From positions 1 to 21,837 of the IMG/VR virus record IMGVR_UViG_3300036715_000539: a stretch of 21,837 bases of DNA; one strand, written 5' to 3'. This document shows positions 2,016 through 15,707 of the stretch, piece by piece; the first letter of the stretch is position 1, and every line of letters starts with the position of its first letter. The position numbers were made by a program, and so were the translations under genes. The notes beneath the pieces were generated by a model that did not search any database, was not told where the DNA came from, and saw only the letters and a list, made by a program, of their open reading frames with translations. The DNA is from a virus.

Positions 2016-4148
2016 ATGCTAGCATTCAATGAGATATCGTACTCATTTAAAAATCAGCGGGACGTAAAGAAGTTCCCGGGACTAGAAAAGGTATGGGAAT
2101 ACCTGGAGCGGCGCGGGGTTAGTAGAACGGTGGCCGATGCGTGCAGTTTGCATGTGATGCCCGCAGTTGAACTAATTGCCGCCGCACGACGCAGCGCCAA
2201 CGTCAACGCGGTGGACAGCCGTGCGGCCATAGTGTTCCCGCACTGGCGGCTGGGACAGGAGGAGCCGATTGAGTGGTGGAGCTCTCGGCTTGTGGAGCTT
2301 AGTATGGGGGGGCCAAGCCTAGTGGTGAGCTTTGGCGACCTCGTAGGCCCCGCCCGCAAGCCGGGCAAGATGTTCTGCCCCCCCAACGAAGCTCCCCACG
2401 CCTACCTGCCCCCCGTGTACGACTGGACCAAGCTGGCGCGTGGTGCGCGGGTATACATCCACGAGTCCTGCATCAAAGCCATTAACAGCGCGGTGCTGGG
2501 CCTGCCCAGCGTGGGGCTAAACGGCGTGTGGGGCTGGTGCAGCGCCAAGCACGGCATTGCCCTGGTGCCGGAGCTGCGGGACCTACCCTGGCGCGCCCTG
2601 GCCCTGGAGCCGGTGGTGGTGTTCGACTCCAACGCGCACACGGACCCGCACGTGCAGCTAGCCGCGCAGCGGTTGGCCATCAAACTGTACGAGATTACTG
2701 GCCGCCAAGCCACCGCGCTGCACGTGCCCATCGCCGACGACGGCACGCACCAGGGGTTTGACGACTACAGAGTCCGCGCTGGGGATGCGCGGGCGCGGGA
2801 GTTCCTGGATGGAGATGGGGCTGTAATAGAGATTGGGGAGCTCCAAGCCATGCTTCTCCAACTCTCTGAAGAGTGCTGCGTGGTGCACGAGATGAAGAAG
2901 GTAGCAATCCAGGAAACCGGCGTTCTGATGACTAAGGCGGAGTTCACGGAACTGATATACGCGCACTTCCTTGCAGAGATTGAGGACGGAGATGATGTGC
3001 GGAGAGTCAACGTGCCAAAACTCTGGCTTACGGATGCCGCACGGCGCGTGGTGGTGGGCAGCCTGGAGTACAGCCCCGGTGCGGGTAGGCTGGTGCCCCA
3101 GCCTGGGGGCGGCCTGCCAAACCTGAACATGTGGCGTGGCATGGGCCTGGAGCCCGACGGTGCCTGCGGTGTAGACCCCTGGCTGGAGCTGCTGGCGGGT
3201 AATATCGAGGACGAAGACCTGCGTAGGTGGCTTGTGGCATGGTGTGCGTACCCGCTACAGCACCTGGGGGCAAAAGTTAATAGCTTCCCACTCATCTTCG
3301 GCCCCAGCGGCGTGGGTAAGGACCTATTCCTCCGACCCATGCACGTAATCTACGGCGCGAATGCTGTGAAGGTGAGTAACAGCGAGATGAAGAGCAACTT
3401 CAACAGCATCTACGCTATGCGCCAGTGGGTACACGTGGACGAGTTGGAGCGCTCCCGTGGGGAGGGCGGTGTGGTGAACAACCGAATTAAAAGCATAACC
3501 ACGGATAAGACAGTGACTGTCAACCGCAAGGGCCAGCCCGAGTACGTGGTGGACAACCACATCAACCTAGTGGTTACGTCTAACTACTGGGACTGCGTGA
3601 AGCTGGACCAGGATGATCGGAGAAGCTGCGTACTGCGCTGGGAGCCCATTGCCGGGGTCGTAGACCACCGCGGAGACCAGCCCTACTGGCAGAGGTATGT
3701 TAAGTGGGCAGACAATGGCGGGGCTGCTGCGTTGTACCAGTACCTGCTAGACCTAGACATAGCGTGGTTCGACCCCGACGCCTGGGCACCCGCCACCCCG
3801 TGGAAGGAACAGGTGAAGCAGGCCACGATGGATGATATTGAGATCTGGGTAAAGGACCTCTGGGACAACGCGGATGACGTGCTCGGAATTCAGGGCGTGG
3901 GGAAGTGCTTGTTCACCAGCAAAGACCTCTGTGTTCTGTGCCATGGTCGTACAGAGGATGACATCACACGTAGCCAGATTACGCGCATGGGTGTAGCACT
4001 TAGGAACGTGGGGTTTAAGCAGGCGGCAGGCGGGGCGCAGCTCCGTAAGCCCGGTGGTGGGCCGGAACGGTGGTGGGCCGTGCGGCGGCGGGACCAAGCG
4101 TGGGGGCCTGAGGAGGCTGTTGAGCATCTAAGAGCTGTGTACCGCTAG
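2016..4148 (+). CDS. Phage primase-helicase (Toprim-like N-half, SF3/D5-type helicase C-half)
   Basis: 710 residues. The ATG at 2016 has AGGAG 5 bases upstream; the GTG at 2001 in the same frame has no site. The N-terminal half (about 100-255) resembles the Toprim-like DUF3854 domain of phage and plasmid primases: the acidic VVVFDSN strand (D204) and a GFDDY motif (247-251). The C-terminal half is a D5/P4-type SF3 helicase (DUF5906-like): Walker A GPSGVGKD at 429-436, Walker B-like WVHVDELE at 471-478, then NLVVTSN (sensor-like) and DDRR arginines around 525-540. The expected role is priming and unwinding at the phage origin. No zinc finger is visible. It is the only large gene here on its transcription unit, and the origin-like region lies just downstream. 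Confidence 0.88.
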   Translation: MLAFNEISYSFKNQRDVKKFPGLEKVWEYLERRGVSRTVADACSLHVMPAVELIAAARRSANVNAVDSRAAIVFPHWRLGQEEPIEWWSSRLVELSMGGPSLVVSFGDLVGPARKPGKMFCPPNEAPHAYLPPVYDWTKLARGARVYIHESCIKAINSAVLGLPSVGLNGVWGWCSAKHGIALVPELRDLPWRALALEPVVVFDSNAHTDPHVQLAAQRLAIKLYEITGRQATALHVPIADDGTHQGFDDYRVRAGDARAREFLDGDGAVIEIGELQAMLLQLSEECCVVHEMKKVAIQETGVLMTKAEFTELIYAHFLAEIEDGDDVRRVNVPKLWLTDAARRVVVGSLEYSPGAGRLVPQPGGGLPNLNMWRGMGLEPDGACGVDPWLELLAGNIEDEDLRRWLVAWCAYPLQHLGAKVNSFPLIFGPSGVGKDLFLRPMHVIYGANAVKVSNSEMKSNFNSIYAMRQWVHVDELERSRGEGGVVNNRIKSITTDKTVTVNRKGQPEYVVDNHINLVVTSNYWDCVKLDQDDRRSCVLRWEPIAGVVDHRGDQPYWQRYVKWADNGGAAALYQYLLDLDIAWFDPDAWAPATPWKEQVKQATMDDIEIWVKDLWDNADDVLGIQGVGKCLFTSKDLCVLCHGRTEDDITRSQITRMGVALRNVGFKQAAGGAQLRKPGGGPERWWAVRRRDQAWGPEEAVEHLRAVYR

Positions 4149-4151
4149 GAC

Positions 4152-4373
4152 GTAACATGGGCTTGGGTCTGAGTACCTGTTACAGGGAATGTTACTGGCA
4201 AAACCTAATATAAAACAACGGGTTATTGGTGTTTGTAACATTGTAACTTTGTAAACTCATAAATTAAATATGTGTAGTGCGTAGGTGCTCGAGTTAGTGG
4301 TCTTATCAATGCTGCCGCATATACACCCCCATTGTGGCTAATTTAAACCCCAATGTTACATGTTACCCGTTAC
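4152..4373. repeat. Phased GTAAC / GTTAC box arrays (iteron-like)
   Basis: GTAAC or its inverse GTTAC occurs at 4152, 4179, 4191, 4235, 4243, 4355, 4362 and 4369, with a variant GTAAA at 4251. Two groups are regularly spaced. TTGTAACA/TTGTAACT/TTGTAAAC run with an 8-bp period at 4233-4256. GTTAC at 4355, 4362 and 4369 runs with a 7-bp period in the opposite orientation. The two triple arrays flank an AT-rich core of about 100 bases. CCTGT-T-ACAGG at 4176-4186 is also a dyad. This is the pattern expected of binding sites for a replication initiator or regulator. Confidence 0.7.
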
Positions 4374-4422
4374 AAAAAGACGGCCGTTTTGGTAGTTTTG
4401 CTGGGGTTTACCCTTAAATCTG

Positions 4423-4479
4423 TGCACCGTGGTGGTGCTCGCTGATAAGTGTTCGTTTATCAGCAAGTGAGTCTCACTT
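4423..4479. other. Three consecutive hairpins
   Basis: GCACC-GTGGT-GGTGC (4423-4437), GCTGATAA with an 8-base loop and TTATCAGC (4441-4464), and AAGTGAG-T-CTCACTT (4465-4479) follow each other almost without gaps. None is followed by a T-tract, so these do not look like ordinary terminators. Single-strand origin structure, protein-binding dyads or a structured RNA are possible. Confidence 0.6.
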
Positions 4480-4490
4480 CTCAAATGTTA

Positions 4491-4569
4491 GTTCTCGGGA
4501 TTAAGTGCGTAGAATGTGCCGGAATTCTTAGCTCTAAGTACCTAATCTTTCGTTCTCAGTACCCGGCTC
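4491..4569 (+). repeat. Degenerate repeats related to GTTCTCAGGTCTAAGTGCTC
   Basis: Three imperfect copies are visible near 4491 (GTTCTCGGGATTAAGTGCG), 4525 (TTCTTAGCTCTAAGTACC) and 4552 (GTTCTCAGTACCCGGCTC). They match the reverse complement of the 33-bp tandem repeat at 6233-6298 at roughly 14-15 of 18-19 positions for the first two. Function unknown. Confidence 0.55.
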
Positions 4570-4615
4570 TTCATCCTCTGTAGCTAGACCTCGTGCTCAG
4601 TGTCTGCCTCTCCGA

Positions 4616-4630
4616 TCCACGAGCCGAGTA
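4616..4630. repeat. Left arm of a long-range inverted repeat (partner at 6145-6158)
   Basis: CCACGAGCCGAGTA (4617-4630) is the exact reverse complement of 6145-6158 (TACTCGGCTCGTGG). The two arms enclose the leftward small-gene block at 4805-5940. Fourteen exact bases between the two control regions, together with the other shared repeats, point to common ancestry or a common binding protein. Confidence 0.6.
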
Positions 4631-4685
4631 CCGAGCTCCACGTGCGCGCACGCGAGTTCTGAATTCATTCTAAAGGAGCCTTAAG

Positions 4686-4737
4686 ATCTAGGATCGTAGA
4701 GCAGAGTGTCTGGGCTCCTGGCATCTAGGATCGTAGA
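4686..4737 (+). repeat. 15-bp direct repeat ATCTAGGATCGTAGA, two copies
   Basis: Exact copies at 4686-4700 and 4723-4737, offset by 37 bases, in the non-coding region before the 32-bp palindrome. Possibly protein-binding sites or remnants of a duplication. An unused Shine-Dalgarno-like AAAGGAGCC sits just before the first copy. Confidence 0.7.
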
Positions 4738-4754
4738 CCGGAGCGACAAGATCA

Positions 4755-4786
4755 AAGACCCTGAGATCCGCGGATCTCAGGGTCTT
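4755..4786 (-). terminator. 32-bp perfect palindrome, likely terminator of the leftward block
   Basis: A perfect dyad of 16+16 bases with no unpaired loop: AAGACCCTGAGATCCG and its exact complement, centred at 4770.5. It lies 18 bases past the stop of the leftward 55-residue gene. Read leftward it is followed by TGATCTTGTC, after a stem that itself ends in TCTT. A terminator for the leftward block is the simplest reading; a cruciform or operator role is an alternative. Confidence 0.6.
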
Positions 4787-4804
4787 GACTTCAGTGCGTG
4801 GAAC

Positions 4805-4972
4805 TCAGTGCTCTGCGCCGTCGGGGCTGAACCAGAACTCCAGTGCCTGCTCAATGTCGTAGTCCAGGCGGCTGGGCGGTCCCACAAACCCGGCGCCGTA
4901 GCGGCCCAGGAACTCGGCCAGTAGGTTAGCTTCCAGCGGGGGCTGGGCGGGGGTGGCTTGGTGCTGTTGCAT
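4805..4972 (-). CDS. Small hypothetical protein (55 aa)
   Basis: A 55-residue frame too short for usual cut-offs: MQQHQATPAQPPLEANLLAE, then FLGRYGAGFVGPPSRLDYDI and a C-terminus EQALEFWFSPDGAEH. The ATG at 4972 has AAGGA 9 bases upstream. The composition (acidic, amphipathic, Pro-rich N-terminus) looks like a real soluble small protein, and the strand, spacing and following palindrome fit the leftward block. Family not recognised. The plus-strand frame that overlaps it has no ribosome binding site. Confidence 0.7.
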   Translation of the reverse strand: MQQHQATPAQPPLEANLLAEFLGRYGAGFVGPPSRLDYDIEQALEFWFSPDGAEH

Positions 4973-5004
4973 GCTGAGTAGTCCTTGGGTTGTAAAACGG
5001 TGCG

Positions 5005-5259
5005 CTAGGCGCTTTGGGCTGGGGTGGCAGTACCTACCCCTTGCCCACCATGCACTAGGCCAGGGGAGGGGCTATACGTGCGGCGCTGGGGGTGCGTGCT
5101 GGGCACTAGTGCCACGGCCCAGCCAAGCGGCAGGCTTGCGCCGTGCTGTAGGTACGCCAGCCCATGCGCTAGGGCTGCGGCGTGCTGGGCGCTGGTGGCT
5201 GGCAGGGTGTACGTAATGCGCAGTCCCTGGCGGGTGTAGCCGTGGCATGTGTACTTCAT
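5005..5259 (-). CDS. Small hypothetical protein (84 aa)
   Basis: 84 residues starting MKYTCHGYTRQGLRITYTLP. The start at 5259 is chosen because its context (CAAACCATGA) is shared with the start of the neighbouring 203-residue gene; an in-frame ATG at 5277 would add six residues (MYAPQT). Neither has a good Shine-Dalgarno. The N-terminal half reads like a folded domain (alternating strand, then an Ala/His-rich helix), while the last ~35 residues are Pro/Ser/Thr/Gly-rich and probably disordered. Family unknown. It lies 32 bases upstream of the 55-residue gene on the same strand, with a strong hairpin before it. Confidence 0.55.
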   Translation of the reverse strand: MKYTCHGYTRQGLRITYTLPATSAQHAAALAHGLAYLQHGASLPLGWAVALVPSTHPQRRTYSPSPGLVHGGQGVGTATPAQSA

Positions 5260-5283
5260 GGTTTGTGGTGCATACATGGCAGC

Positions 5284-5312
5284 ACGCCCCCGGCTTGTTG
5301 GGCCGGGGGCGT
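5284..5312. terminator. GC-rich hairpin between two leftward genes
   Basis: ACGCCCCCGGC (5284-5294), loop TTGTTGG, GCCGGGGGCGT (5302-5312): an 11-bp perfect stem located after the stop of the 203-residue gene and before the next start. No T-tract follows on either strand, so it may be an mRNA-stabilising 3' hairpin or processing site rather than a strong terminator. Confidence 0.55.
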
Positions 5313-5328
5313 AGGTTAGGTGCTAACG

Positions 5329-5940
5329 TTATGCTTGCACGGGGGCCAGCCAGCGGTTCTTCACTGCGTAACGCACAAAGTCTCCGGTACTGGCGCCGGC
5401 CAGTACCGCCCCCGTGGCTGCGCCGCCAGCGGCTGCCAGCGCAGCTTGTACGGCCTGCCAGCACTGCACCGTATACGGCACGCGCACCTTGCACAGCACC
5501 GGGCCAAGGGCCAAGCGCTTGGCGGCCAGCTCCGTAGGCACGTTGCCCAGGCTGGCCGCGCGGGCCAGCACGTTCTTGGCGGCGGAAACCTGCTGCCCAG
5601 CCACCACAACAGCCACGGGCAGCACAGGGGTAGCAGGGGCGCCGGCCACAGTAGCAGGCGCTGCGGGCTGTGCGGCAGCTTGGTCCTGCAGTACCAAGGC
5701 CATAGCTGCCAAGGGGCCCGCGCTGGCCTTTGGCGCGGCGGGCTGGGCGGGCTGGGCGGGCTGGGCGGGCTGGGCGGGCTGGGCAGCCAGGGCTGCAATT
5801 TCCGCAGCGCGCTGCTCGTCGGACTCGTACCCGGCTTGCGCTTCGGCTTGCTTGGGCAGCTTGGCGGCTGCCTTAGTGCCCGTGCCCTTGGTGGCTGCGG
5901 GCTTGGTTTGCTGAGTGCGTGTAGTGGTGGTCTTGCTCAT
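5329..5940 (-). CDS. Ala/Pro-rich hypothetical protein with AQP repeats (203 aa)
   Basis: 203 residues. The N-terminus (MSKTTTTRTQQTKPAATKGT) is basic and Thr/Lys-rich. A charged helix (about 38-52) precedes a run of (A)QP repeats at about 53-68, encoded by a 9-bp tandem repeat, then a long Ala/Val/Pro-rich linker. The last ~80 residues (from AAKNVLARAASLGNVPTELA) look folded and end GDFVRYAVKNRWLAPVQA. Much of the protein is probably disordered. Family and role unknown; the basic tail could bind DNA. It heads the leftward block 5940-4805. The ATG at 5940 has only a weak GTGAG upstream. Confidence 0.75.
   Translation of the reverse strand: MSKTTTTRTQQTKPAATKGTGTKAAAKLPKQAEAQAGYESDEQRAAEIAALAAQPAQPAQPAQPAQPAAPKASAGPLAAMALVLQDQAAAQPAAPATVAGAPATPVLPVAVVVAGQQVSAAKNVLARAASLGNVPTELAAKRLALGPVLCKVRVPYTVQCWQAVQAALAAAGGAATGAVLAGASTGDFVRYAVKNRWLAPVQA
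5740..5784 (-). repeat. 9-bp tandem repeat (GGGCTGGGC), five copies, in frame
   Basis: Five exact head-to-tail copies of GGGCTGGGC on the plus strand (GCCCAGCCC on the coding strand) encode the AQP repeats. Such a run can change copy number in 9-bp steps without breaking the frame. Confidence 0.9.
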
Positions 5941-7521: not shown

Positions 7522-7598
7522 CTAAGCCCCGCATCCGCAAGCCTGCGCATCCCCACCAGTACCGCGAGTACGAAGGAACTGAGAATGCAGCTACCTAG
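7518..7598 (+). CDS. Possible 26-residue coupled ORF between small and large terminase
   Basis: GTG at 7518 with GGAG 6 bases upstream begins a short frame (MTKPRIRKPAHPHQYREYEG plus TENAAT) ending at 7598. It overlaps the small terminase stop and the large terminase start. The strongly basic peptide may be a leader whose translation couples the two terminase genes, or simply a spacer. No homology is known to me. Confidence 0.3.
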   Translation: MTKPRIRKPAHPHQYREYEGTENAAT

Positions 7599-10167
7599 CG
7601 AGATCAAGCAGGGGCTGATGTCTGCGCCATTCGAGAGCGTGGCGGAGCTGTGGCACATTCTCGAACTCGAGTACGGCGAGGCCGTAAAGCCCTGGCTCGC
7701 GCAGCACGACCGCTACTACCTGCTAGTGCGAGTACTCCACCGCCTGGACGTGGTACACCCCTGGCTTTACGCTCGGTGCCGAGAAGTTGAGCAAGACCCC
7801 GACGGGTTCCTGGACCTGTGGGCACGCGAGCATTACAAGGCTCTGGACCTGGACACTCCAGTGCCCACCCCCACTGGATGGAAGAAGCACGGGGACCTAG
7901 CCCCGGGTGACTGGGTATACGGGGCCGACGGAGCACCTACAAAGGTGGTTGCAACAACCCCTGTATTCACTGATGCAGAGTGCTTCAAGGTCTACTTTGA
8001 CGACGGAGCAGAGATTGTATGCAGCAAGCAGCATCTCTGGACAGTGGAAGTGAAAGATAGGCGCAGAATCTCGGGGTCGGAGAAACAGCGAGGCTGGATC
8101 ACTAGAACGGTAGACACCGAACAGCTTCAGCGCATGCAGGGCGTCTGCCGGATTAGGGTCGCCCCTGCGTTGCTGAATGCCGAGCACATGTTACCGGTGG
8201 CACCGTATACGCTCGGAGCATGGCTGGGAGACGGGGACAACAGCGGAGGAGTGGTGACCTGCGGAGACCCAGAAGTCTTTGAAAACATTCGGCTTGACGG
8301 GTACTCACATAAAGACGACCGACCAGATAAATCCTGTCAACACCACACTATCTACGGACTGGGCGCTATCCTGCATGATATGGGATTGCTGCACAACAAG
8401 CACATTCCCCAAGAGTATCATATTGCGAGTATCAATCAGCGTCGTGCCCTTCTTCAGGGTCTTATGGACACTGACGGGCACTGCAGTGTTCGGAGCACTT
8501 GCACCTTCGTCAACAAGCACGAGCCGCTGGCAGACTCTGTGTTTGAACTTGCAGTAGGGCTAGGGCTGCGCCCTACAAAGAATCATTTCGACTATGATCA
8601 CGGACGCGTGTACCACATCACGTTTACTGGGCGTAGGGTTGACGAGCCATTTCGCATTCCGCGTAAGCTGCTTCGTTGTAGGGACGATGGAAAAATTCGC
8701 AGTACCTACCGGCAAGTCTGGGGCGTCGTACCCGTGCCGACGGTGCCCGTATCGTGCATTCAGGTAGAAGCTAATGACGGGCTGTACTTGGCGGGTAGGC
8801 ATGCAGTCACTACGCACAATTCTACCATCATTACGTTTGCTGGCATCGTGCAGAAGGTGATCAACGATCCGGAAATTACGATCGGCATCTTCAGTCATAC
8901 AAAGCCCATCGCTAAGGCGTTCCTCCGGCAGATTCAGAAAGAGTTTGAGAACAATCAGGACCTACGTGCGCTGTTCCCAGGGCTGTTTTGGGAGAACCCG
9001 GACCGGGAAGCTCCGTCCTGGAGCTTGGACAACGGCATCACGGTGAACCGCAAGTCTAACCCCAAGGAAAACACCGTGGAGGCTCATGGGCTGGTGGACG
9101 GGCAGCCTACGTCCAAGCACTTTGGACTCCTGGTGTACGACGACGTGGTTACCCGTGAGTCTGTGTCCACACCTGAGCAGATCCAGAAGACCACGGAGGC
9201 CTGGGAGCTTAGCGACAACCTGGGCAGCATTGGCTGCCCCAAGTGGCACATCGGTACGCGGTACTCATACGCGGACACCTACGAATCTATAATGAAGCGC
9301 CACGCAGTCAAGGTGCGGACCTACCCCGCCACGGACGACGGAACGATAACCGGCAAGCCTGTGCTGTTCCCCCAGACCGTGTGGGACGAGAAGGTGCGCG
9401 CCCAGGGAGAGGCCACCATATCCTGCCAGATGCTGCAGAATCCGCTGGCCGGCCAGCAGAAGATGTTCAACGTAGAGGACCTCATGGTGTACGAAGTACG
9501 CCCCGAGGTGTTGAACGTCTACATCATGGTTGACCCCGCTCGCAGTAAGAAGAAGGGCAGTGCCAAGACCGCTATCGCAGTCATCGGGATCGACTACGCA
9601 CGGAACAAGTATCTGCTGGATGGGTTCAACCACAAGATGGATCTGCGTGAGCGCTGGGTACGCACCGCGCAGATGTACCACCGCTGGAAGCGCGCCCCAG
9701 GTGTACAGAATATATTTGTGGGGTATGAGTCCTTCGGTGCGCAGGCAGACCTCGACTACTTCGAGGAGCAGATGCAGAAGCCCACCGAGGGCGGACACTT
9801 CCCCATTGTGGAATTGGAGTGGCCGCGTGATGGCGAGGGCAGCAAGGTGGACCGCGTGCAGCGGCTTGGTCCTGACTTCCGAGCGCACAAGTTCTACCTT
9901 CCGTACGACACGGACCCCAAGAACCTGACCAAGCTCCAGCGCACCATGGAGAACACGGGCTACCGGCACCGCATAGCTATACCGATCAAACGCAAGTCTG
10001 AGACTGGAGAGATGTACGACCTGTCCAAAGACCTGCGCATGCAGGTGCACTTCTTCCCCTTCGGGGGAACGGTGGACTTGATAGATGCAACGTCTCGCAT
10101 CTACGACATGGAGCCCAAGGCCCCCAGCTTTGCGGAGCCTTCCTACCTAGAACCTGACTACACGTAA
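7585..10167 (+). CDS. terL: Terminase large subunit (ATPase and nuclease), interrupted by an intein
   Basis: 860-residue precursor: extein 1-85 and 413-860 (533 residues after splicing, the usual large terminase size) with a 327-residue intein at 86-412. The ATG at 7585 has GAAGGA 8 bases upstream. ATPase motifs: a deviant Walker A AREHYK/ST split exactly by the intein, Walker B LLVYDD at 515-520, and a coupling motif IGTRY at 556-560. Nuclease: MVDPA with D650, a GYESFG strand, and a VDRVQRLGPDF motif typical of RNase H-fold terminase nucleases. The protein pumps DNA through the portal into the prohead and cuts the concatemer. Without splicing the P-loop cannot form, so packaging should depend on intein removal. 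Confidence 0.95.
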   Translation: MQLPSEIKQGLMSAPFESVAELWHILELEYGEAVKPWLAQHDRYYLLVRVLHRLDVVHPWLYARCREVEQDPDGFLDLWAREHYKALDLDTPVPTPTGWKKHGDLAPGDWVYGADGAPTKVVATTPVFTDAECFKVYFDDGAEIVCSKQHLWTVEVKDRRRISGSEKQRGWITRTVDTEQLQRMQGVCRIRVAPALLNAEHMLPVAPYTLGAWLGDGDNSGGVVTCGDPEVFENIRLDGYSHKDDRPDKSCQHHTIYGLGAILHDMGLLHNKHIPQEYHIASINQRRALLQGLMDTDGHCSVRSTCTFVNKHEPLADSVFELAVGLGLRPTKNHFDYDHGRVYHITFTGRRVDEPFRIPRKLLRCRDDGKIRSTYRQVWGVVPVPTVPVSCIQVEANDGLYLAGRHAVTTHNSTIITFAGIVQKVINDPEITIGIFSHTKPIAKAFLRQIQKEFENNQDLRALFPGLFWENPDREAPSWSLDNGITVNRKSNPKENTVEAHGLVDGQPTSKHFGLLVYDDVVTRESVSTPEQIQKTTEAWELSDNLGSIGCPKWHIGTRYSYADTYESIMKRHAVKVRTYPATDDGTITGKPVLFPQTVWDEKVRAQGEATISCQMLQNPLAGQQKMFNVEDLMVYEVRPEVLNVYIMVDPARSKKKGSAKTAIAVIGIDYARNKYLLDGFNHKMDLRERWVRTAQMYHRWKRAPGVQNIFVGYESFGAQADLDYFEEQMQKPTEGGHFPIVELEWPRDGEGSKVDRVQRLGPDFRAHKFYLPYDTDPKNLTKLQRTMENTGYRHRIAIPIKRKSETGEMYDLSKDLRMQVHFFPFGGTVDLIDATSRIYDMEPKAPSFAEPSYLEPDYT
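7840..8820 (+). mobile_element. Class 3-type intein with LAGLIDADG (DOD) homing endonuclease in terL
   Basis: Precursor residues 86-412. Block A starts ALDLDTPVPTPTGW with Ala, not Cys or Ser, at position 1. Block B has H150 and W152 (CSKQHLW), block F has C391 (VPVSCIQV), and block G has T410-H411-N412 followed by Ser. That is the Trp-Cys-Thr set of class 3 inteins, in which the block F Cys is the branching nucleophile. Endonuclease motifs: GAWLGDGD (block C) and LLQGLMDTDGHC (block E), each with its acidic residues. The element sits at Lys-Ser of the terminase P-loop. Its codons look more AT-rich than the flanks, in keeping with later acquisition. Confidence 0.92.
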
Positions 10168-10800: not shown

Positions 10801-13800
10801 GTGGCAAAGAGAATCTCTGACCTCCCGGCAGCAACTACGATCAATTCCACGGACGTGATGCCAGTGGACGTGGGTAGCCCCCCGCTGACGAAGAAAGTGA
10901 CACTTGCGCAGATCTTCGCGGGGGCCTTCGGTAATGTGAGCTTGCCGCTGCCGGTCAACTCACTGCTGAAGACGACACCTGACGGCATGGGCTTTGGCTC
11001 GGCTACCTCCATCACAGAGGACTTGTCCGGCAATGTTACGATTCACAAGGCTACGCTTGACGCCAGTAGTCTGAACGTGTACAGCCCGGACACAGGCGCG
11101 GTCAACACATACGTGATAACCACCAGTATCAATGCAGTAGCGCTGGTCACGGGGCTGTCGGTGCAGTTTGTGACTGCGAACGCCAACACCGGAGCAGCCA
11201 CGCTCAAGATCAACGCTCTCACGGCTAAGAGCATCGTGTTCCCTGGCGGTGCTGCACTGCAGGCAGGTGCCATACCGGCGGGCGTGGTCTGCTGCGTGGT
11301 GTACAACGGCACGGCGTTCGAGCTACAGAGCACCACCAGCGCGGAAGCTAATGGCACACTCCAGTGGCTGACGAGCGTGGCAGGCACGGACACTATTACT
11401 GCCGGCAACGCTGGCGCAGTGGCTGCGTACCGGGCGGGGCAGCAGTTCACGTTCATCCCCGCAGGAGTGAACACTGGGTCTTCCCCCACACTGAATGTGA
11501 ATAGTCTTGGCGACAAGACTATTGTTCTCCCTGGTGGGGGCACGGTTACGGCAGGTGCGCTCGCTGCAGGAACAGTGGTCAGTGTGATCTATAACGGTAC
11601 TGCATTCGAGCTACAGAACACGGGCAGCGGTGGCGGAGGAGGAGGGCCCAGCGGCTTTACTGTAGTGACCAGCATCGCAGGTCTCAAAGCTCTGTCTAAG
11701 CTGACATACAGTCAGGCGTACGTTGCTGGATACTACGCTGCTGGGGACGGCGGCGGGGGCATGTACTACTACGACGCCGCGGACACCACTACGCTAGCCT
11801 CCCCCACTATCAGCGGGGTCACCAATTCCGGTAGCGGGGGCACGCTGGCAGCAGCTACATACTCCTATCGGGTCACAGCGCTGAACGCCGTGGGCGAGAC
11901 GCTTGCTTCCTCAGCTAGCACTACCACCACGTCCGGCACTACGAGCACTGCGACTATCAACTGGGGCGCAGTCACTGGGGCCACAGCGTATCGCGTATAC
12001 GGCCGCACGGTAGGTGCTGAGGGATTTCTGGCAGAGGTGGGCGCGGTCACTTCGTTTACGGATACTGGATTCCTTTCTCCTCTGACTGTGGTCCCTGTTG
12101 CTGCCAGCACTCCGGACAATGGCGGCAGCGTGGTTGTAGCCAGTGACGGAGGCCGGTGGAAGTTGGCGGGCAGCGGTCCGTTCACCACTCGTCAATTTGG
12201 CGCCAAGCACGACGGAGCCACTGATGACTACGCAGCTCTCCAGGCGGCAATCACGTACTGCCAGAACAGCTACAGTCTTCGAATTTCTAGCGGAACCGCG
12301 TACACTACCAAGACGCTGATAGCCACCCAGCGGACACACCTGTTTGGTGAGCTGGCATGGCTCAGCGTTATCAAGTCGAACGCCACGTACGGACTAGTTC
12401 TGCAGCCGCGCTACGGTGCGGGCATCACGTTCCCGTACATGCACGACTTTAGCGTGATTCCGAATACGAACGGCGCTGGAACGAGCGGCATTCTGTTTCG
12501 ACTAATCCCGGACAATTCTGGCGCAGTTCCGAACTACGTCAGCAACTTCACTATCGCGCGCTGCTATATTGGGGACTTCGGTAGCTATGGCCTGAATCTT
12601 GACAACTCTGCCGTTAACGGAAACGGGTTCTTCACGTTTACGATTGAGCGAAACTGGATTAGCAACGGTATCGTCGCCAATCACATTGGGGACTCCTGCA
12701 ACATCCATCTAAACACCATTACGGACGGAGGCACTGTCGCAGCTAACCGCACGGGCGGCAGGGTGGGAATTCTGTACACGGGTCTCAGCGGTGCGCGCAA
12801 CTGCGTCTTCCGTGAGAACAGCATCACCACGTCTGGCGGGGCAATCGCAGCTCTGAATGGAGATCAGCTTCGTATTGAGAACAATCAGTGCGAACACCCG
12901 TTCTACTACAGCATTCCGTACGGGGCCAGTGGAATCTACAACGCACTGATCTACATATACAACTGCGCGTACGCCAAGATCTCTGGCAATACGATGCAGG
13001 CGGGACAGGGCGTGGTACTAGCGACGACTACCGCGACGACGACCAGTGGTAGCTCTACGCTCACGTCAGTGGCCTCATTTACTAATCTGTACGTGGGCGC
13101 TACCATTGCCGGCACGGGCATCCCCACTAGTGCGCGCATCGGCTCCGTGAACCCAGGTGCAGGCACCATTACCATGGTGCTGCCCGGGGGGGCTGCGGCG
13201 AATGCCACATCCTCCGGCGCTGGCCGCACGATGACGTTTGGCCTGGCCCCAGACTACACCGTTCTGTTTGACGGAACCAGTGCGTGTAGGTTCAACTTCC
13301 TCGAGAATGGCAACGACGTGTTCCCAGGAAATGTTTGCCACCTTGGATTCACCAGCGGGGTGGTAATGAATGGTCTCACTGGGATGAACACCTTTGTGGG
13401 TGGCAGCCACGGTAGTCTATTCCCAACAGTGTACGACGGGGGTGGCGGGGCTTACCCCCAGGTCGGCATCTGGCAGGCACTAGCGCTAAACACTGGGTAT
13501 TCTCCGTTTACATACCCGTCTGGTAGCCCAGCAGATGCTCTGTACTTTGTTGGTGTGGATGGCTACTGCACTCTAAGCGGGTGCGTGTACAACACCACGG
13601 CCAGTGCCATCACCCTGATTGCCTCATTTCTGTATCTTCGCTCACTTACCAGCCCGTCTGGCAATACCCGGTACAGATTCTGCACCAGTGCTAGCGACAG
13701 CGCGAACGTCAACATTATTCAAGCGAGGGGCAGTAGTATAGAGGCCGTTACTACTGTGGGTCTAGGAATTCAGGTATGTCTGGATGGAGTTCGATTTCCG

Positions 13801-13818
13801 TACGAGCTAAGCATCTAA
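10801..13818 (+). CDS. Tail spike / fibre with pectate-lyase-like beta-helix (1005 aa)
   Basis: GTG start at 10801 with GGAG 7 bases upstream. The N-terminus (MAKRISDLPAATTINSTDVM) is a typical virion-attachment start for fibres. Two homologous modules follow (about 84-178 and 194-272), each ending FPGG/LPGG...YNGTAFELQ. Next come a Gly linker (276-284), a fibronectin III-like segment (about 333-434, YSYRVTALNAVGETL), and a pectate lyase 3-type beta-helix beginning TRQFGAKHDGATDDYAALQA near 463, with repeated right-handed-helix features (RIENN, KISGNTM) to about 800. The C-terminus is a separate beta-rich domain. The protein probably binds and depolymerises a host surface polysaccharide. Substrate cannot be told from sequence. 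Confidence 0.88.
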   Translation: MAKRISDLPAATTINSTDVMPVDVGSPPLTKKVTLAQIFAGAFGNVSLPLPVNSLLKTTPDGMGFGSATSITEDLSGNVTIHKATLDASSLNVYSPDTGAVNTYVITTSINAVALVTGLSVQFVTANANTGAATLKINALTAKSIVFPGGAALQAGAIPAGVVCCVVYNGTAFELQSTTSAEANGTLQWLTSVAGTDTITAGNAGAVAAYRAGQQFTFIPAGVNTGSSPTLNVNSLGDKTIVLPGGGTVTAGALAAGTVVSVIYNGTAFELQNTGSGGGGGGPSGFTVVTSIAGLKALSKLTYSQAYVAGYYAAGDGGGGMYYYDAADTTTLASPTISGVTNSGSGGTLAAATYSYRVTALNAVGETLASSASTTTTSGTTSTATINWGAVTGATAYRVYGRTVGAEGFLAEVGAVTSFTDTGFLSPLTVVPVAASTPDNGGSVVVASDGGRWKLAGSGPFTTRQFGAKHDGATDDYAALQAAITYCQNSYSLRISSGTAYTTKTLIATQRTHLFGELAWLSVIKSNATYGLVLQPRYGAGITFPYMHDFSVIPNTNGAGTSGILFRLIPDNSGAVPNYVSNFTIARCYIGDFGSYGLNLDNSAVNGNGFFTFTIERNWISNGIVANHIGDSCNIHLNTITDGGTVAANRTGGRVGILYTGLSGARNCVFRENSITTSGGAIAALNGDQLRIENNQCEHPFYYSIPYGASGIYNALIYIYNCAYAKISGNTMQAGQGVVLATTTATTTSGSSTLTSVASFTNLYVGATIAGTGIPTSARIGSVNPGAGTITMVLPGGAAANATSSGAGRTMTFGLAPDYTVLFDGTSACRFNFLENGNDVFPGNVCHLGFTSGVVMNGLTGMNTFVGGSHGSLFPTVYDGGGGAYPQVGIWQALALNTGYSPFTYPSGSPADALYFVGVDGYCTLSGCVYNTTASAITLIASFLYLRSLTSPSGNTRYRFCTSASDSANVNIIQARGSSIEAVTTVGLGIQVCLDGVRFPYELSI

Positions 13819-14483: not shown

Positions 14484-15240
14484 GTACACTCCACCAAATC
14501 CTAACCTGCCATGGCCTATCTGTCTTGAGGGGGTGGAGCTCATTGCTCGGCGCGAGGGGCTTAGCTACCGCGCCTACCGCTGCCCCGCAGGAGTATGGAC
14601 TAACGGACGCGGCTGCACACGCGGTGTGGGAGCTACTGACGTATGGACTCTGGAGGAGTGTGATAGCCGGCTCTTGGCCGAGCTCATTGCCACTGCGCGA
14701 GCAGTGCAGCGTGTATGTGAGGTAGAACCCTCGGAACATCAGATGGCCGCCATGGTCAGTCTGGCGTTCAATATCGGACCGTCGGCGTTTCTGAAGTCTA
14801 CGGTTCTGAAGGCGCACAACCGTGGAGACTTTCTGGCAGCGAGCCGAGCGTTTGGGCTGTGGAACAAGGCTACTGTCAACGGCGTGCTTACCGAGCTAGC
14901 TGGTCTGACTGCTCGACGGGCAGAAGAAGCGGCAATGTATATCGATGGTAATCAGCCCACTTCGGAGAAGATGCCGCAGGCGGTCGCTGCTGAGTCCGGA
15001 ATTTCTAAGTCCCCCATTGCACAGGCTGGCGGAGTGACCGCTGGGCTGGGGGTGCTGGGCACAGTGTCTCAGGCGTCGGACCAAGTGTCTACGGTGGACA
15101 TTACCGTGAAGACAGTGAAGTCATTTGCTACGGACACGTTAGGAATTCCGGCCAACTACTTCCTTCCGCTGGTGTTGATTGCCGCTGGCGCCGCTGTGGT
15201 GTACTATAGGCACCGCCAGAGGAGTCAAGGATGGGCCTAG
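14476..15240 (+). CDS. Endolysin, GH24 lysozyme with C-terminal membrane segment (254 aa)
   Basis: 254 residues from the ATG at 14476. The frame is open further upstream but overlaps the holin. The lysozyme domain (about 15-160) has the GH24 catalytic pattern Glu-x8-(Asp/Cys)-x5-Thr: E27 in RREG, C36 in YRCP, T42 in VWTNGRG. The family Asp is Cys here, a known variant. The motif MVSLAFNIGPSAFLKSTVL (about 93-111) is typical of the family. After a Ser/Thr/Gly-rich linker, residues 228-244 form a membrane segment followed by RHRQR. There is no N-terminal signal. It cleaves peptidoglycan after membrane permeabilisation. The overlap with the candidate holin and Rz places it in a lysis operon. Confidence 0.9.
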   Translation: MDKYTPPNPNLPWPICLEGVELIARREGLSYRAYRCPAGVWTNGRGCTRGVGATDVWTLEECDSRLLAELIATARAVQRVCEVEPSEHQMAAMVSLAFNIGPSAFLKSTVLKAHNRGDFLAASRAFGLWNKATVNGVLTELAGLTARRAEEAAMYIDGNQPTSEKMPQAVAAESGISKSPIAQAGGVTAGLGVLGTVSQASDQVSTVDITVKTVKSFATDTLGIPANYFLPLVLIAAGAAVVYYRHRQRSQGWA

Positions 15241-15707
15241 GACTGCTAAAAGCTGCACCCCTGTGGGCCTGGGCGCTTGCAGCGGCGCTCCTGTGGGGGG
15301 CGTGGCAGCGGCACGCCGCCCAAGCTATAGCCGCGCAATACACGGCAGCGCAGCTCCAAGCCAGCGCAGAGCGGGAGAAGGCACTTTCTGATTCACTGAA
15401 GAAGGTTCAGCAGCGAATCGCAGATCAGGAGAAGGTGGTCGCAGATGCTAAAGAACAGACCGCGAAAATCGCAGCCACTGCTGCTGAGTATGATACTGCT
15501 CTTGGTAGGCTGCGCAGCCAGCTCGCCACTGTCCGTGCCCGTGTCGCCAGCAGTAATTCCCCCACTGCCAGCCGAGGCGAGGCAGACGTCCTCACCAGAC
15601 TTCTTGAAGAAAGCGCTGGAAGATATAGGGAAATGGCAGCGGCGGCTGACCGATCTACTATTGCCGGACTCGCCTGCGAGCGGTCCTACGACGCACTAAG
15701 GAAGTGA
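15231..15707 (+). CDS. Rz: Rz-like inner-membrane spanin
   Basis: 158 residues; ATG at 15231 with GAGGAG upstream, overlapping the endolysin stop. The N-terminal membrane segment is at about 6-23 (KAAPLWAWALAAALLWGAW). A long periplasmic coiled coil follows (about 28-105, with EREKALSDSLKKVQQRIADQ), and the tail has a Cys (ACERSY). This is the i-spanin layout: anchored in the inner membrane, pairing with the o-spanin to fuse the membranes and break the outer membrane at lysis. The o-spanin gene is nested inside it in another frame. Confidence 0.85.
   Translation: MGLGLLKAAPLWAWALAAALLWGAWQRHAAQAIAAQYTAAQLQASAEREKALSDSLKKVQQRIADQEKVVADAKEQTAKIAATAAEYDTALGRLRSQLATVRARVASSNSPTASRGEADVLTRLLEESAGRYREMAAAADRSTIAGLACERSYDALRK
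15445..15699 (+). CDS. Rz1: Rz1-like outer-membrane lipoprotein spanin, nested in Rz
   Basis: 84 residues in the +1 frame entirely within the Rz gene. Basic N-terminus, a hydrophobic core (PLLLSMILLLVGC) and a lipobox with C23, giving a 61-residue mature lipoprotein. The mature N-terminus is Pro-rich (SVPVSPAVIPPLPAEA), as usual for o-spanins, and is followed by a helical tail. The start has AGGAG about 14 bases upstream, a long spacing. Nested Rz/Rz1 is a known arrangement in phages of Gram-negative hosts and confirms the lysis cassette. Confidence 0.85.
   Translation: MLKNRPRKSQPLLLSMILLLVGCAASSPLSVPVSPAVIPPLPAEARQTSSPDFLKKALEDIGKWQRRLTDLLLPDSPASGPTTH

Follow-up and report, generated by a model that had tools for sequence, protein, structure and literature searches.

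The terminase large subunit (TerL) encoded in the phage DNA analysed here, a stretch of 21,837 nt referred to as the window, almost certainly carries a full-length mobile class 3 intein, consisting of a HINT domain and a LAGLIDADG endonuclease, within its Walker A-like loop. The sequence shows the exact junctions of the intein, its class 3 residues, the presence of an endonuclease domain, purifying selection, a patchy distribution among relatives and horizontal movement. The coordinates of the gene, the intein and their functional residues are collected in Table 1.

The interrupted gene and the insertion site

The interrupted reading frame matches the PHROG profile phrog_38 (terminase large subunit) with E=1.9e-46, and NCBIfam termin_lrg_T7 with E=2.4e-8, the latter being under the family cut-off. 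A TerS gene (phrog_1206) lies immediately upstream, and genes for the portal and the major head protein follow downstream. The family match, the packaging gene cluster and the Walker A-like loop all identify the gene as TerL. The loop reads WAREHYKST and is missing the usual Gly before Lys, yet it is kept across TerL relatives. No second, intein-free copy of TerL was found in the 21,837-nt record, which is itself a fragment. The portal protein is ~37% identical to those of Vibrio phages, and the phage lineage is distant from characterised phages.

Other features of the window include a tRNA-Pro (CGG) gene at 97-189, close to its left end, and a gene at 10801-13818, between TerL and the lysis genes, whose 1005-aa product contains a pectate-lyase-like domain and is probably a tail spike. 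After the lysozyme gene, two ORFs overlap in different frames (15231-15707 and 15445-15699), of which the inner ORF, 15445-15699, has the lipoprotein-like start LLVGCAASS. With this start and the overlap, the pair resembles embedded Rz/Rz1 spanins.

The insert in TerL comprises precursor residues 86-412 (327 aa, ALDLD...VTTHN), is in frame and is directly followed by Ser. It splits the Walker A-like loop between Lys85 and Ser86 of mature TerL (REHYK/ST, with the stroke at the insertion point). Comparison of the joined exteins with IMG/VR identified seven TerL relatives without the insert that read straight through this site, with identities to the joined exteins of 80-81% (L001-L003), 70-72% (L004-L005), 54% (L006) and 34% (L007). 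In L001-L006, LDLWAREHYK is directly joined to STIIT, and in the more distant L007, SRGHWK is followed by SSLIT. As the intein-free relatives are contiguous at the insertion point, both junctions are exact, and the in-frame insert is therefore not a chance ORF. An earlier note, made from the letters of this DNA alone, had placed an intein at 7840-8820, between Lys and Ser of the Walker A motif; the ORF translation and the contiguous empty-site relatives bear out both the extent and the position.

Table 1. Positions in the window of TerL, its intein and the residues and domains assigned to them.
Feature	Position	Strand	Basis
TerL precursor, intein included, 860 aa	7585..10167	+	PHROG phrog_38, NCBIfam, IMG/VR TerL relatives
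N-extein, 85 aa, ending WAREHYK (first half of Walker A-like loop)	7585..7839	+	Joined to STIIT in intein-free relatives
Class 3 intein, Ala1 to Asn327, 327 aa	7840..8820	+	Empty sites, alignments, structure model
N-terminal splicing region, blocks A and B, intein residues 1-114 (approximate boundary)	7840..8181	+	Aligned to 6bs8 residues 1-74
Codon of Cys48, counterpart of the Cys48 that pairs with the catalytic Cys in the Msm DnaBi1 disulfide	7981..7983	+	phmmer alignment to 6bs8
His65 (B:10) and Trp67 (B:12, class 3 Trp, precursor W152)	8032..8040	+	His in 72/72 and Trp in 71/72 inteins
Predicted LAGLIDADG homing endonuclease, intein residues 115-270 (approximate boundaries)	8182..8649	+	LAGLIDADG_3, PI-SceI profile match, Foldseek
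First LAGLIDADG motif, LGAWLGDGD, acidic Asp131	8212..8238	+	Asp in 68/72 inteins, otherwise Asn (2), Glu (1), gap (1)
Second LAGLIDADG motif, LLQGLMDTDG, acidic Asp212	8449..8478	+	Asp in 70/72 inteins
C-terminal splicing region, blocks F and G, intein residues 271-327 (approximate boundary)	8650..8820	+	Residues 292-327 aligned to 6bs8 104-139
Cys306 (F:4), predicted class 3 initiating nucleophile, precursor C391	8755..8757	+	Invariant in 72/72; aligned to Msm DnaBi1 Cys118
Thr325 (G:5), His326 (G:6), Asn327 (G:7), precursor T410-H411-N412	8812..8820	+	Invariant in 72 aligned inteins
C-extein, starting at Ser+1 (8821-8823), the Walker A Ser and predicted second splicing nucleophile	8821..10167	+	Empty-site relatives, terminase matches

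Splicing residues and proposed mechanism

Class 3 inteins are defined by Trp at B:12, Cys at F:4 and Thr at G:5, do not require a nucleophile at residue 1, and have Ser or Thr at the +1 position (PMC5222942). The TerL insert shows all of these features, with Ala1, the triad W67/C306/T325 and Ser+1 (Ser413 of the precursor). Pfam and NCBIfam profiles returned almost nothing on the insert, and PDB profiles, PHROGs and a fold search were used instead. The best PDB matches found by phmmer are the class 3 DnaB-1 inteins of Mycobacterium (6bs8, E=1.7e-22; 6rix; 6riy), to which the N-terminal 71 and C-terminal 36 residues align, placing Trp67, Cys306, Thr325, His326 and Asn327 on their DnaB-1 counterparts. 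Intein-containing terminases in PHROG also match the insert (E about 1e-27). An alignment of 16 phage inteins from TerL, DnaB-like, Cas4-like and other hosts was subsequently extended to 72 inteins, in which His65, Cys306, Thr325, His326 and Asn327 are invariant and only a single member lacks Trp67. The Ala start without the usual Cys/Ser nucleophile that the earlier note had described is confirmed, since the N-junction is set by intein-free relatives. Its W152, C391 and T410, assigned to blocks B, F and G, are exactly as stated and fall on class 3 positions in the alignment with 6bs8/6rix and 71 other inteins, which was the check it had proposed.

The active site also displays a lineage-specific change. 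Block B of the TerL intein has Ser62 (window 8023-8025) in place of the Asp found in Msm DnaBi1 and in 40 of the 56 class 3 inteins from outside this TerL site; all 16 inteins of the site are without this Asp. Splicing kinetics may differ as a result.

Splicing, the order of its reactions, DNA cleavage and the inactivity of unspliced TerL are inferred, with the proposed splicing chemistry based on homology with studied class 3 inteins. Following translation, Cys306 would attack the Lys85-Ala1 peptide bond, and the N-extein would be handed from Cys306 to Ser+1. Cyclisation of Asn327 would release the intein, and an O-N shift would join REHYK to STIIT, rebuilding the ATP-binding loop and enabling the packaging motor to work. 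It can soundly be inferred that the motor needs splicing, and unspliced TerL would be expected not to bind ATP. The endonuclease, either freed or embedded, would cut the conserved P-loop DNA of intein-free TerL alleles, with repair copying the intein in.

A further layer of control has been considered in addition to this mechanism. In Msm DnaBi1, a disulfide linking the catalytic Cys118 to Cys48 shuts the intein reversibly (PMC6195587), and the TerL intein carries Cys at the corresponding position 48, as do most same-site and other class 3 inteins. Oxidation may form a Cys48-Cys306 disulfide in the TerL intein, turning splicing off and holding packaging until reducing conditions are met. Cys is found at this position in 60 of the 72 sampled class 3 inteins, the window included (14/16 same-site, 46/56 others), although the sample is weighted to the best family matches and actinobacterial DnaB and this share may not represent the class. 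Cys48 in about five-sixths of the sampled inteins is the reason for considering such a switch as common across class 3. In the Msm DnaBi1 paper, Cys48 was called non-conserved. However, that intein requires it for splicing as such (PMC6195587). Conservation of a residue needed for splicing itself is no argument for a redox switch on its own, and may be catalytic or structural rather than regulatory. The L197 and L191 inteins, both at the same TerL site, are without Cys48, and any benefit to the phage from redox control is hypothetical. Redox gating of the terminase intein, proposed as an addition to the splicing mechanism, is considered unlikely, and it is similarly doubtful that a Cys48-Cys306 type of switch is both present here and common across class 3.

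Endonuclease, selection and movement at a fixed site

The central part of the intein is a predicted homing endonuclease. The Pfam profile LAGLIDADG_3 matches with E=3.5e-4 at 21.2 bits, just below the gathering cut-off of 22.5, and a profile of the intein family matches residues 209-388 of PI-SceI, its endonuclease, with E=6.6e-20. An AlphaFold2 model of the intein, built on 36 sequences, has a mean pLDDT of 94.1 and a pTM of 0.91. Foldseek with this model returned PI-SceI first (E=2.3e-19, TM about 0.8), followed by class 3 DnaB inteins (target TM 0.82-0.90) and I-DmoI. Two motifs with acidic residues and an endonuclease fold, the marks of a LAGLIDADG endonuclease, are thus present. Sequence and model together indicate that the intein carries an apparently intact two-motif enzyme of this family, which is absent from the earlier note.

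Inteins at the same TerL site occur in several forms. Scanning IMG/VR for a DLWAREHYK junction with Ala or Gly as the next residue gave 19 stretches. These, with the window, the IMG/VR contigs L013 and L129, and L025 (from the genome of Pseudomethylobacillus aquaticus), provided 16 different TerLs for analysis, each with a class 3 intein inserted at exactly the same codon, so that about 15 TerLs besides that of the window hold class 3 inteins at the REHYK/ST site. A scan with the intein protein by itself found L013 only. The window intein is 68% identical to that of L013, 61% to that of L129 and 45% to that of L025. In addition to full-length inteins, the site holds one whose endonuclease has been deleted in part (L195) and a natural class 3 mini-intein of 148 aa (L190, with its TerL ORF on the - strand), in which the endonuclease is gone and the splicing residues are retained. 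Three additional stretches (L187, L198, L201) have an intein-like start with a C-junction outside the motif used. Some 80 fetched TerL relatives, a few of them the same contig fetched twice, are empty at the site, but filled and empty counts are not frequencies, as the two sets were fetched by different routes. The L025 TerL, at 2719-5346 of P. aquaticus contig01, lies in a bacterial genome contig and adjoins a lysozyme-like gene. This locus is probably a prophage, and it hints that relatives of the window phage infect Methylophilaceae.

Both the splicing and the endonuclease functions are under purifying selection. In comparison with the L013 intein, dN/dS is ~0.12 for the N-terminal splicing part and ~0.16 for the C-terminal part, with a similarly low value for the endonuclease; dS is saturated and these values hold to an order of magnitude only. 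The decay seen at the same site in L190 and L195, and the fact that the window is a 21.8-kb fragment, would be consistent with a decayed, non-splicing intein in a defective phage, or with a dead endonuclease under purely vertical inheritance. Either is improbable, as the frame is open, every catalytic residue is retained and both LAGLIDADG acids are there. Furthermore, the endonuclease is conserved like the splicing part, with 70% vs. 68% identity to L013 and a dN/dS of about 0.09.

The reading of a mobile intein is consistent with its distribution and phylogeny. GC3 is lower in the intein (0.60) than in the exteins (0.78), and L013 shows this contrast too. The window clusters with the empty L001-L003 in the TerL tree, and L013 has the empty L112 as its sister; with filled TerLs beside empty closest kin, the presence of the intein is patchy at short distances as well. 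Over all pairs, the identities of intein and extein show hardly any correlation (Spearman 0.17, p=0.06). The inteins of L025 and L197 are 55% identical and form a supported pair (95/97), whereas their exteins are 44% identical and a clade of these exteins is rejected, with an AU p=3e-38 that is descriptive, as the pair was picked after inspection of the data. This conflict between intein and extein trees indicates that the intein moved between TerL lineages. Together with the patchy presence, it is also an indirect sign of homing. In a wider class 3 tree, same-site inteins are strongly clustered (3 changes vs. 13.8 in shuffles), which suggests that movement is mostly to the same site.

Phylogeny also bears on the class of the intein. 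In a tree without a class 1 outgroup, the insert falls among class 3 inteins of the same TerL site, in a set of five (SH-aLRT 95); all tree members have the Cys and Thr of the triad and all but one have the Trp. This placement, alongside the triad, His at B:10, the His-Asn end and Ser+1, upholds the class 3 signature proposed in the earlier note, and on every sequence feature of the class the assignment holds. A class 1 or class 2 intein, with splicing started by residue 1 or directly by Ser+1, is extremely improbable, because although class 2 inteins too are without a residue-1 nucleophile (PMC5222942), the insert has Ala at residue 1, a complete Trp/Cys/Thr triad with Ser+1, and clusters with class 3 inteins.

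Relation to known inteins

Class 3 inteins in TerL and DnaB have already been published (PMC5050341; PMC6195587). Mycobacteriophage TerL1-a inteins lie between the P-loop Lys and Thr, and TerL1-c and -e are class 3 (PMC5050341). The annotated TerLs of Sassay, ECD7 and 65FD have class 3 inteins exactly at GK/T or GK/S, and the window intein has matches in 765 records of a phage collection, with at least 80% of the intein covered in 503. Many annotated phages carry such inteins, and the TerL insert is a well-supported new example of a known element. A description of the REHYK/ST site family was not found in a literature search. The insert adds a clear class 3 intein in a phage lineage for which no published intein was found. 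One fixed site shows every stage of the homing cycle, from empty to full-length, partly deleted and mini-intein, making it a useful natural series for testing the spread of inteins among phages via an essential gene. The conserved Cys48 also offers a specific way to test whether redox control is confined to mycobacterial DnaB or shared by class 3 inteins in general.

The closest studied counterparts are Msm DnaBi1 (6bs8) and Mch DnaB1 (6rix/6riy), which are like the TerL intein in their triad, Ala1, His65, Cys48, THN end and Ser+1. Msm DnaBi1 likewise lies in a P-loop, with the P-loop Ser acting as the +1 residue in splicing (PMC6195587). The Mycobacterium DnaB-1 inteins are, however, endonuclease-free mini-inteins of a bacterial helicase, whereas the TerL intein keeps its endonuclease, resides in a phage TerL and has Ser62 rather than Asp62. 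The TerL inteins of mycobacteriophages and those in gp17 of the T4-like ECD7 and FL04 are, like that of the window, LAGLIDADG inteins in the TerL ATPase domain. They differ in terminase family and phage lineage, with about 35-39% intein identity to the window. L013, L129 and L025 share the TerL family, insertion codon and class 3 residues but belong to separate phages, and the L025 intein starts with Gly where that of the window starts with Ala. Finally, PI-SceI (the Sce VMA intein) shares the HINT and LAGLIDADG architecture of the window intein, but is larger, uses the class 1 mechanism and is hosted by a eukaryotic V-ATPase.
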